NCBI GenBank assembly: GCA_005881025.1
Contig: VBFO01000113.1
Coordinates: 1-41,582 of the forward strand
Origin: Chloroflexota bacterium
GTDB taxonomy: Bacteria; Chloroflexota; Dormibacteria; Dormibacterales; Dormibacteraceae
Direction of reading: 5' to 3'
DNA length: 41,582 nt
Part shown: positions 5,856-40,884 of the stretch, in pieces
Layout: each line of letters opens with the position of its first letter
Position numbering within the stretch: position 1 is the stretch's first letter
Made by a program: the position numbers and the translations under genes
The notes under the pieces: generated by a model
Told to the model about the DNA's origin: nothing
What the model saw: the letters and a program-made list of their open reading frames with translations, nothing else
Database searches by the model: none

Positions 5856-5885
5856 CCCCTTCACATACGCCCCTGCATTGCATTG

Positions 5886-5908
5886 GCGGCCGGGCTTGCC
5901 CCGGCCGC
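5886..5908 (+). terminator. GC-rich hairpin, probable terminator of the 86-aa gene
   Basis: Arms GCGGCCGGG (5886-5894) and CCCGGCCGC (5900-5908) form a perfect 9-bp stem with a 5-nt loop, followed by GACTTTGTTTACC. The T-tract is interrupted, so intrinsic termination is plausible rather than certain. Confidence 0.5.
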
Positions 5909-5946
5909 GACTTTGTTTACCTCGACGCTAACGCGGCATGGAGTGA

Positions 5947-6042
5947 CTCTTAGTAAGAGCCGAACCTTATACCGGAAGGAGAGCAGCCACGGTGGCGAAG
6001 CCACCCTGGCGATGAGAGGAAACCATTTGGGTTTCCTCTCAT
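5947..6042. repeat. Array of three further hairpins between small gene and patatin gene
   Basis: Three perfect inverted repeats follow each other: CTCTTA-G-TAAGAG at 5947-5959; GGTGGC-gaa-GCCACC at 5991-6005; and a 13-bp stem with arms ATGAGAGGAAACC (6012-6024) and GGTTTCCTCTCAT (6030-6042) around a 5-nt loop. The last sits 2 bp beyond the stop codon of the minus-strand patatin gene and is the obvious candidate for its transcript end, although no U-tract follows on that strand. On the minus strand this stretch also reads as a 31-codon ORF (6040-5948) beginning MRGNPNGFLSS. Confidence 0.6.
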
Positions 6043-6044
6043 TA

Positions 6045-6977
6045 CTATGCTGCGGCTTCGGCGCCTGCCAGCCCGACCTCGGCCTTCCTGGCCTTCTTCG
6101 CGGCCGCCTCGACATTCGAGCCTGACTCGGTCAGCAGCCTCCACGCTGAGTCGAAGCCGCGGTCGATGAGCTCGGCCGTGTGGCCGAAGTCGGCAGGCGA
6201 CACGGCGAGCGGGTCCAGCGCCGGGATCACGACGATGTCGGCGACGTCTCGGTGGATGGCGATCTCCGACTCGAGGCGCTGCTCCACGAGTCGCGCCAGC
6301 GCCTGGAGCGCCATCCCGAGCGCGTTCGTCGGCTCCTCGTGAAGCCACGGATAACCGATCGTGAGCACGTAGATCCTCTGCGCGCCCAGGCCGACGGCGG
6401 CCTCGATCGGCGTGTGGTTGGCAACGCCGCCGTCCACCAGCTCACGCTTGCCGATGGATACCGGCGGGAAGACGCCGGGGATCGCGCAGCTCGCCAGCAG
6501 TGCGGGAACAGCCGGCCCGCTCGAAAGGACTGAGGCGCGGCCGTTGCGGAGCTCGCTGGCGACCACGTGTACCGGTATCTGAGCCTGTTCGAGCCGCTCA
6601 TAGGGGATATGGCGCTCGAGAATCGACCGAAGGCCCGCGTTTGAGATGAGGTGGTTCGACCGGCCCAGCAGACCCGCCGCCGCCGTCCAGCCAAGCGGGA
6701 ACACGTCGTCTCGCCTGAGGCCCTTCCAGATCTCGGCCAGCCTGGCGACGCCTTCGGAGTTGGGCCATCCCCCCACCCATGCCGCGTTAACAGCGCCCAC
6801 CGAGGTGCCGATGAGCATGTCCGGCTTGATCCCCGCGTCGAACAGTGCCTGCAGCATCCCGACCTGGATTGCGCCCAGGCTGCCGCCGCCGGACAGCACG
6901 AAGGCGACAGGGCGGCGGCCGCGAAGAAGGCGCCGAAGCATTCGCGACTTGATCGGCCGGTGGCCGTTGCTTCCCAT
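6045..6977 (-). CDS. Patatin-like phospholipase (RssA/YchK-type)
   Basis: A 310-residue patatin-fold acyl hydrolase with a Ser-Asp dyad. It shows the oxyanion loop VLSGGGSLGAIQVG, the nucleophile elbow GTSVGAVNAAW (GxSxG) and the dyad Asp in LVDGGVANHTPIEAA. A membrane-lipid or acyl-ester hydrolase acting in the cytosol is expected from the family; the substrate is unknown. The ATG at 6977 is preferred because AGAGGG precedes it by about 10 nt. An in-frame TTG at 7034 would add 19 low-complexity residues and has no ribosome-binding site. The gene stands alone, with a strong hairpin just past its stop. Confidence 0.9.
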   Translation of the reverse strand: MGSNGHRPIKSRMLRRLLRGRRPVAFVLSGGGSLGAIQVGMLQALFDAGIKPDMLIGTSVGAVNAAWVGGWPNSEGVARLAEIWKGLRRDDVFPLGWTAAAGLLGRSNHLISNAGLRSILERHIPYERLEQAQIPVHVVASELRNGRASVLSSGPAVPALLASCAIPGVFPPVSIGKRELVDGGVANHTPIEAAVGLGAQRIYVLTIGYPWLHEEPTNALGMALQALARLVEQRLESEIAIHRDVADIVVIPALDPLAVSPADFGHTAELIDRGFDSAWRLLTESGSNVEAAAKKARKAEVGLAGAEAAA

Positions 6978-7316
6978 TCGTAAGTGCCCTCTAGATGTAG
7001 AAACGCTCGACGCGAGAGGGCTGGCATAGTCCAAACGTAGTGGTCGAGTCGCATTTGTTTAGGTCCGGAAAATACTTGTCGTGTTGGCGGCGTTTCCATG
7101 ACATATGGACGCGCGCAGACCCCTTCATGTAGCTCCCGCCCGCGTTCCCCTTAGACCACTCGTCAGGCTGGCCGTGCGGGTCCTGGGGCCCGGTCCGCTA
7201 CGCCTGAGGATGGTGAAGTTCGCGCACGAGCTGGAAACGCCCGACCGGAACCCCGAGACCCTGCGCAAGGCCGCCTAACCAGGCCCTCGGTACTTCACTT
7301 GAGGCAGGCGTTTCTA
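6978..7316. other. Gene-poor stretch with a possible 57-codon ORF
   Basis: This 339-bp stretch must hold the patatin promoter on the minus strand. On the plus strand an uninterrupted ORF of 57 codons runs 7105-7278 (begins MDARRPLHVAPARV, ends MVKFAHELETPDRNPETLRKAA). It lacks a convincing ribosome-binding site, so I do not call it a gene. I see nothing else here. Confidence 0.35.
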
Positions 7317-7529
7317 ATGCAGATGGATGATTTCGACATGTATCTGGAAGTCTTGCTCGCGCGCATGCTCGATCGAGTCGTGGAGCGCCCTGCCCCTCCG
7401 CGCCGGGGCCAGGAGGACCGCCCACTGCCATTCCACTCGCTGGTAGGCGGCCTCACCGGATCGCCGCTCGAGCTGATCGTCGGCGAGGCGATCCCTGTGC
7501 CTGTGCCGGTGGTCGCGCCGGCTCGCTGA
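7317..7529 (+). CDS. Small hypothetical protein (70 aa)
   Basis: Not recognised. The product begins MQMDDFDMYLEVLLARMLDR, a short amphipathic helix, and ends in a Pro/Val-rich tail (IPVPVPVVAPAR). Start candidates are ATG at 7317 or 7323, or TTG at 7299; GAGGCAGG upstream is a loosely spaced ribosome-binding site. The main support for a real transcript is the well-formed intrinsic terminator 33 nt beyond the stop. Overlapping minus-strand ORFs have no such support. No function can be proposed. Confidence 0.45.
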   Translation: MQMDDFDMYLEVLLARMLDRVVERPAPPRRGQEDRPLPFHSLVGGLTGSPLELIVGEAIPVPVPVVAPAR

Positions 7530-7562
7530 CTCCCTGAAAGAACCCTTCCTCCCCTCTCGTGG

Positions 7563-7595
7563 GGCCGGGCCGCAAGGCTCGGCCTCCAAGTTTTT
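7563..7595 (+). terminator. Rho-independent terminator
   Basis: A 9-bp stem, GGCCGGGCC (7563-7571) with GGCTCGGCC (7576-7584) including one G.U pair, is capped by a GCAA (GNRA) tetraloop. It is followed within 7 nt by TTTTT (7591-7595). This is the clearest intrinsic terminator in the window and ends the small plus-strand gene before it. Confidence 0.8.
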
Positions 7596-7715
7596 ATGGG
7601 AGGAAACCCGGATGGGCGAAACCCGCCTCTGCCGGCATTCGCGTTCTTCGCGAAGCTTGCAGGCACGCGAGTGCGTGCACTCGCGCTATTCGATGGCGCG
7701 CGGACAGCAATCTAA
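7596..7715 (+). other. Structured segment with possible 39-codon ORF (MGGNPDG...) and hairpins
   Basis: Immediately after the terminator T-run, an ATG opens a 39-codon frame beginning MGGNPDGRNPPLPAFAFFAK. The same DNA holds a 15-nt-period near-repeat (GGAGGAAACCCG and GGGCGAAACCCG), the palindrome CTTCGCGAAG (7646-7655) and a hairpin with arms CGCGAGTGC and GCACTCGCG (7666-7685). Its first seven codons match the minus-strand element at 6040-6020 apart from four bases. It has no ribosome-binding site. It may be an intergenic repeat or the 3' end of the PaaK-like transcript rather than a gene. Confidence 0.4.
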
Positions 7716-40721: not shown

Positions 40722-40795
40722 CGGGGAGTAGCGCAGCCCGGTAGCGCACTTGACTGGGGGTCAAGTGGTCGCGGGTTCAAATCCCGCCTCCCCGA
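40722..40795 (+). tRNA. tRNA-Pro (anticodon GGG)
   Basis: A full cloverleaf. The acceptor stem is CGGGGAG (40722-40728) with CTCCCCG (40788-40794), then discriminator A. The D arm uses GCGC/GCGC. The anticodon stem CTTGA/TCAAG holds loop CTGGGGG with anticodon GGG at 40756-40758, and the T arm is GCGGG-TTCAAAT-CCCGC. The CCA end is not encoded; CTTTT follows at once and probably terminates. Confidence 0.97.
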
Positions 40796-40884
40796 CTTTT
40801 CCAGACCAAACTTTCTCTATTTGAACTCGCCGGAGGTCCTATCGGCCAAGAAGGCCTAATACGTACGTCTGGGCTGGGTCTTAC

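Follow-up and report, generated by a model that had tools for sequence, protein, structure and literature searches.

Among the known intrastrand triplex motifs of bacteria are the BoxC/PIT/TM_ECO sequences of Escherichia coli (Holder et al. 2015, PMC4666352). According to the accessible part of that study, an oligonucleotide of the motif forms a stable triplex and blocks DNA polymerase in vitro, the motif marks variable loci, and in vivo footprinting gave no support for its stable formation (PMC4666352). In the portions of the literature that were available, earlier support for natural bacterial intrastrand DNA triplexes consists of oligonucleotide biophysics together with genomic association. 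Small dispersed palindromic intergenic repeats are also found in the form of REP/BIME and MITE repeats, including the GTAG/CGTC-tagged REPs described in the accessible part of PMC3733652.

The repeat analyzed here lies in a stretch of 41,582 nucleotides (the window) from a soil bacterium of the Chloroflexota, family Dormibacteraceae, whose assembly comprises 2.6 Mb in 172 contigs and is 87% complete. Judged from its sequence, the window copy is probably (at a probability of about 0.7) a non-coding mobile, MITE-like repeat of ~170 nt whose 3' end is a predicted class I purine-motif intrastrand DNA triplex. It shares with BoxC/PIT/TM_ECO, as far as the accessible part of that report goes, an intergenic and multi-copy nature, a purine motif of about 8-10 triads (predicted here) with G.G-C as the mainstay, and a tie to local genome variability rather than to gene function (PMC4666352). 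In the same source TM_ECO belongs to class II, with the order pyrimidine, purine and third strand, whereas the present element is of class I, with the order third strand, purine and pyrimidine; the class II order and consensus CCCTCNCCC...GGGNGAGGG...GGGNGAGGG of BoxC/TM_ECO are thus not those of the element, which differs in both sequence and order. TM_ECO measures 34-37 nt with loops of few nucleotides, whereas here a ~170-nt dispersed repeat ends in the motif, and the linker can hold a hairpin (PMC4666352, accessible part). The window linker, from third strand to purine arm, spans 30 nt (5984-6013) and falls outside the 1-6-nt loop rule of the published database, as far as that rule is given in the available text, whereas the 5-nt linkers of Peribacteria would fall within it. 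In the available part of the TM_ECO report the motif is described without mobile-element association and more often upstream of genes, whereas the element sits mostly beside gene stops (PMC4666352). Unlike REP/BIME, the element occurs in carriers without Y1 transposase, and no terminal inverted repeats were seen in it. In H-DNA, mirror-symmetric purine tracts form reverse-Hoogsteen triads through a strand swap in duplex DNA; the element has similar mirror purine tracts, but its three strands lie on one DNA strand and are joined by a hairpin fold.

New features are the covariation of triads, the hairpin-joined third strand and the placement of the motif at the end of a mobile repeat which, at one locus, is present, inverted, duplicated or absent. 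A literature search whose coverage excluded most subscription papers turned up no publication on mobile elements ending in a triplex, nor any on the present repeat. Triads that vary by reverse-Hoogsteen rules constitute comparative evidence of selection for a three-stranded fold, and the copies are natural 'mutants' with matched third strands, which makes folding in cells and the effects on replication and rearrangement directly testable. Searches restricted to 1-6-nt loops miss elements with a hairpin-tied third strand.

Anatomy and distribution of the repeat

A preliminary description of the window had pointed to a short string shared by two sites, each next to a hairpin. The first of them, at 6012-6042, forms the 3' end of an intergenic repeat of ~170 nt on the plus strand, from about 5874 to 6042 (Table 1). 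The perfect 13-bp hairpin described there is confirmed, with 6012-6024 pairing with 6030-6042 at 2 nt from the patatin stop codon (6045-6047). The length was established by blasting a 3-kb copy locus (L135) against relatives, where the query stretch of about 1403-1573 recurs at many unrelated loci. When the genomic copies are set side by side, they share a layout consisting of a GC-rich 5' hairpin, a variable middle, a constant CCGGAAGGAGAGCAG, a variable hairpin and a final GATGAGAGGAAACC-loop-GGTTTCCTCTCAT. At least nine copies were read in the genome of the window, on contigs C43 (the window itself), C14, C3, C160, C117, C130 (a variant), C158, C147 and C46.

Table 1. Coordinates of the repeat, its remnant and the adjoining host gene within the window
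Feature	Position	Strand	Remarks
Whole repeat element, about 169 nt	5874..6042	+	Aligned with 19 other full-length copies; 5' edge approximate
5' hairpin GCGGCCGGG / CCCGGCCGC	5886..5908	+	9 pairs; covariation in 20 copies
Predicted third strand GGAAGGAGAG	5974..5983	+	5976-5983 face the duplex; triad covariation with 6014-6021
Linker hairpin, third strand to terminal hairpin	5986..6010	+	Covariation in 28 copies; predicted fold
Terminal 13-bp hairpin	6012..6042	+	Purine arm GAGAGGAAACC 6014-6024; pyrimidine arm GGTTTCCTCTC 6030-6040
Patatin-like phospholipase gene	6045..7034	-	PF01734, E 6.1e-32; stop codon abuts the 3' end of the element; host gene, outside the element
Remnant, 3' end of a second element	7594..7615	-	Loop plus pyrimidine arm only

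The terminal hairpin is maintained through compensatory changes. Among 28 diverse copies, 98.9% of the cells in the linker and terminal hairpins are paired, 13 of their 21 pairs show changes on both sides in at least one copy, and double-changed cells amount to 88 versus 25.6 after shuffling. Such both-side changes involve 7/8 pairs of the linker hairpin and 6/13 pairs of the terminal one, in which 99.7% of cells are paired. The 5' hairpin behaves in the same way in 20 copies (7/9 pairs with both-side changes, 96.6% of cells paired).

One subtype (L055, L085, L118, L061) carries inside the linker a variable stretch of ~30 nt between two constant GC-rich arms, which differs among copies. The linker region of L062, L076, L115, L117, L120 and L123 contains another small palindromic module, about CTGGGGTCCCCGCG-loop-CGCGGGAG, as if small repeats nested in one another. 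Three partial copies (L201 and L202 on contigs C184 and C11 of G105, and L203 on contig C16 of G113) keep the 5' hairpin and have the 3' end changed or rebuilt; the one in G113 has AAGGGAACC opposite GGGAGGGTT, a third strand with two T.

The reading as a dispersed intergenic repeat, one of those offered in the preliminary description, is supported by these multi-copy, intergenic and family-wide occurrences. A first model (R1) found the element in 5/121 genomes spread across the phylum, and a more diverse covariance model (R2), the check that had been proposed, gave 1-69 matches in each of 33/42 genomes of the family of the window, counts that include some antisense matches arising from the palindromic hairpin. 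Outside the family, 4/68 other genomes of the class yielded a single weak match each. Several genera of the family have no matches among the incomplete metagenome-assembled genomes (MAGs) examined, and copy number within the family ranges from 0 to tens. An exact scan for the hairpin alone in a collection of 84,980 species returned 79 stretches, most of them in soil MAGs labelled Dormibacterota or 'Chloroflexi CF_' and 27 in other phyla.

Covariation of the predicted third strand with the terminal duplex

The conserved upstream segment GGAAGGAGAG mirrors the purine arm GAGAGGAA of the hairpin instead of complementing it. Comparison of subfamilies extends this relation, for a change in the purine arm is matched by one in the upstream purine segment, again as mirror image and not as complement: third strand GGAAGGAGAG goes with duplex GAGAGGAAACC, GGAATGGGAG with GAGGGAAAACC, GGAAGGTGAG with GAGCGGAAACC, GGAGGGAGAG with GAGAGGGAACC and GGAGGATAAG with GAGAAGGAACC. 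Inspection by eye ruled out a K-turn as well as Watson-Crick pairs between the purine segment and the pyrimidine arm, the relation being mirror and not complement.

Antiparallel purine-motif triplexes are built from A.A-T, T.A-T and G.G-C triads, as stated in the available part of PMC10609763. The agreement of the copies with this rule was examined by taking 235 aligned matches and removing 112 that overlapped a better match, 9 duplicate sequences and 16 gapped copies, some of which do not fit the triads. The remaining 98 ungapped copies represent 34 distinct third-strand/duplex combinations and only 14 duplex types. The underlying models were seeded with hand-chosen copies spanning the duplex types, picked after the mirror relation had been noticed; in the covariance model the third strand counts as unpaired, and the model is unable to force triads on it. 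In the distinct set, 86.8% of the cells are G.G, A.A, T.A or T.C, compared with 72.4% after random re-pairing (reached in 0/2000 trials). Since the shuffles preserve column make-up and not relatedness, the resulting z of 7.2 overstates significance, and, as the triad tests leave kinship among copies in, the effect size matters more than the z-score. Sliding the strands by 1-3 places gives 24-65% fit and the parallel register 35%.

The individual positions point in the same direction. At triad 6, duplex A (11 combinations) is faced by T in 6 and by A in 5, and duplex G (23 combinations) by G in 20 and by A in 3. T, which faces C-G in antiparallel triplexes, does so in 6/6 combinations with duplex C. 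Where duplex types differ at 1-2 of the 8 places, the third strand differs at the facing place in 45/70 comparisons and elsewhere in 37/258. Most of the 34 combinations fit at 7-8 of 8 places, with T.C-G counted as fitting, and some at 5-6; the common duplex type GAGAGGGA is most often paired with GGAAAGAGAG, of which only 6/8 places fit. The conserved t1-t2 (GG) and d9-d11 (ACC) form no standard triads. The window copy fits at 8/8, within the range of 6-8 or more consecutive A.A-T, G.G-C and T.A-T triads that defines such motifs, and its third strand (5974-5983), purine strand (6014-6024) and pyrimidine strand (6030-6040) follow each other in class I order on one DNA strand. Triads that co-vary in mirror register are what characterizes a class I purine-motif intrastrand DNA triplex. 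The 3' end of the element would be built to fold as a single DNA strand, in which the upstream purine strand GGAAGGAGAG may lie antiparallel to the purine arm in the major groove of the 13-bp hairpin, third strand and hairpin together giving eight predicted reverse-Hoogsteen triads.

The same structures could instead belong to an RNA, whether a small RNA, a 3'-UTR element or a protector of transcript ends, with the purine segment as a loop or as a Shine-Dalgarno-like site for a protein or the ribosome. The hairpins do co-vary and fold stably as RNA, and the copies are found at gene ends: the next gene at the 3' end of the element is convergent in 73/98 copies, with its stop at most 7 nt from the element end in 45/98 according to a rough ORF caller, and a simpler count places a convergent-frame stop 3-10 nt past the arm in 54/97. 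However, Watson-Crick RNA pairing does not explain why purine segment and purine arm covary in mirror register, the window copy has no T-run after its hairpin, and copy number varies from 0 to tens within one family. Furthermore, the triads are in line with DNA and not with RNA, since the accessible part of PMC4666352 reports that purine-motif triplexes do not form in RNA. Searching Rfam with the window and 14 loci gave no match to the element at gathering score, only tRNAs and weak sub-threshold hits, among which Twister-sister (0.38), CC0196 (0.17) and suhB (0.75) are far under threshold. The suggestion of a structured RNA family therefore holds for the conserved structure, but an RNA identity is unlikely.

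Two more specific RNA candidates were dropped as well. A resemblance to SRP RNA (GGAAGGA-GCAG) was abandoned because the copies in other phyla lack the flanking pairs. A riboswitch had been suggested by the copy on contig C117 (L005, 3504-3602), which sits ~10 nt before an ATG and, in contrast to most copies, in sense orientation, the downstream gene being presumably nrdR from its translated reading frame; it was discarded in view of the predominance of convergent neighbors.

Turnover, spread and occurrence in other phyla

Comparison of related genomes indicates that the repeat comes and goes. At one orthologous locus the element is present in one species, and another species of the same genus has an empty site. 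A second locus, between genes that we take, from reading their sequences, to be thioredoxin-like and PII-like, was inspected in 13 of 17 genomes (12 plus G105; in G139, G141, G150 and G151 the flanks are split or missing). There the element is forward in 8 genomes, with two copies in G147, inverted in 3 and absent in 2; the inverted cases are one full copy, one truncated copy and one 46-nt fragment detected by blast in G145. Copies also occur in short tandem arrays with a period of 172-211 nt, and two of these arrays also take in sequence of flanking genes. This turnover, whether by gain or by loss of copies, fits both active mobility and structure-induced rearrangement. Like MITEs, the element is short, non-coding and dispersed, with empty sites present; terminal inverted repeats and target-site duplications were not seen at the two loci with empty sites.

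In a possible scenario, the triplex would arise in DNA when the strand is single, that is, on the lagging strand or in a repair or transposition intermediate, and the predicted structure could stall the polymerase, favoring template switching, duplication and local rearrangement. The repeat may have been spread by a trans-acting enzyme that recognises its folded ends. One candidate for such mobilization is a Y1 (RAYT) transposase of the IS200/IS605 type, or another HUH enzyme, moving a REP/PATE-like element in trans with the hairpins as recognised ends. It would agree with the structured ends, which have no visible terminal inverted repeats, with the dispersal between genes, and with presence and absence at one locus. 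Nevertheless, the Y1 transposase that REP/PATE elements have in their carrier genomes (Y1_Tnp, PF01797) was found in 0/33 carrier genomes of the family and in 3/19 genomes of a mixed set, and Y2_Tnp in 2/33 carriers, which makes this origin very improbable. The three genomes with most element matches have neither Y1 nor Y2, and also lack reverse transcriptase, which occurs in 6/33 carriers and 3/9 non-carriers. By their occurrence in carriers and non-carriers, none of these three enzymes fits as the mobiliser. The sole genome of the 42 with Y1 transposases is a non-carrier (G054, 11 matches).

A further alternative is a protein-binding site or a terminator module that gene conversion has spread and whose mirror symmetry is an accident of purine-rich sequence. 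This reading would be in keeping with the way the element replaces or abuts terminators at the thioredoxin/PII-type locus. It is given equally little credence, as it conflicts with the mirror-register covariation, including the T facing C-G in every combination with duplex C, and with short-linker versions of the arrangement recurring in unrelated phyla. This recurrence was assessed in the flanks of hairpins chosen without regard to the third strand. Because 28% of shuffled stretches reach 7/8 in a looser triad test, 7/8 alone over 100 nt is no evidence, and the test was repeated with tight limits. An 8/8 third strand 11-100 nt upstream was then present in 38/54 hairpins of Dormibacterota-type MAGs (shuffle mean 1.6, maximum 7), and a 7-8/8 third strand at a linker of 3-10 nt in 14/27 hairpins of other phyla (shuffle mean 2.1, maximum 5). 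About half of the non-Dormibacterota hairpins have no third strand and are probably unrelated terminators, so that a bare hairpin match is not an element. The linkers of Peribacteria, Clostridia and others measure 5-8 nt, the length required for a direct turn between third strand and duplex, whereas in the family of the window the linker holds a hairpin. The predicted third strand would accordingly reach its duplex through the linker hairpin in the family and through the 5-8-nt linker in other phyla.

Taken further, the triplex-ended repeat could represent mobile elements that use a DNA triple helix as transposition end. A recombinase outside the Y1/Y2 HUH kinds would recognise or cut the class I triplex once folded in single-stranded DNA, and the device would recur in Peribacteria, Clostridia and an Actinomycetota MAG, where the linker is short, and in an Omnitrophota MAG, where a hairpin fills the linker. 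This broader proposal is put forward as a tentative one that is rather doubtful at present.

In Oscillospiraceae and Clostridia MAGs (L079, L082, L104, L107 and L119) further strong hairpins precede the short-linker triplex motif and GTTACTT...AAGTAAC palindromes come after it, forming a larger repeated unit.

The second site in the window and its short reading frames

The two members of the shared string are both real but unequal, the first being a complete element and the second best read, from its sequence, as a 21-22-nt truncated remnant of an element 3' end, with neither purine arm nor third strand. Minus strand 7615-7594 is identical to element 3' ends at 21/22 and 20/21 positions, and the best match in three shuffled windows reaches 14-15 of 21. 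As described, the plus strand from 7596 reads ATGGGAGGAAACCCGGATGG directly after the T-run of a terminator-like hairpin; the minus-strand start lies at 6042, not at 6040, and reads ATGAGAGGAAACCCAAATGG. The two 20-nt strings agree at 17/20 positions. With at most 3 mismatches the shared pattern occurs in the window at these 2 sites only and in 0 of 100 shuffles, and the genome search that had been called for yields 6 occurrences in 2.6 Mb, with 0 in a reversed control; the match is therefore not due to chance, yet it is a small part of a larger element. The analysis did not find the inverted repeats reported beyond 7620 to be part of the element.

Short ORFs of 30 and 39 residues open at both sites as had been noted, but they are by-products of the palindrome, since the first copy reads ATGAGAGGAAACC on both strands, and the coding frame is not the conserved feature. 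A pair of tiny MxGNPxG proteins is thus hardly credible: both sites do open a short frame, but its start is supplied by the palindrome, the hairpin of other copies varies through compensatory base pairs that take no account of codons, and the rest of the element is missing at the second site.

Elsewhere in the window, a tRNA-Pro (GGG anticodon) at 40722-40796 is the sole Rfam match at gathering score. The remnant, for its part, adjoins the stop codon of a convergent gene that encodes the C-terminal domain of an AMP-binding enzyme.
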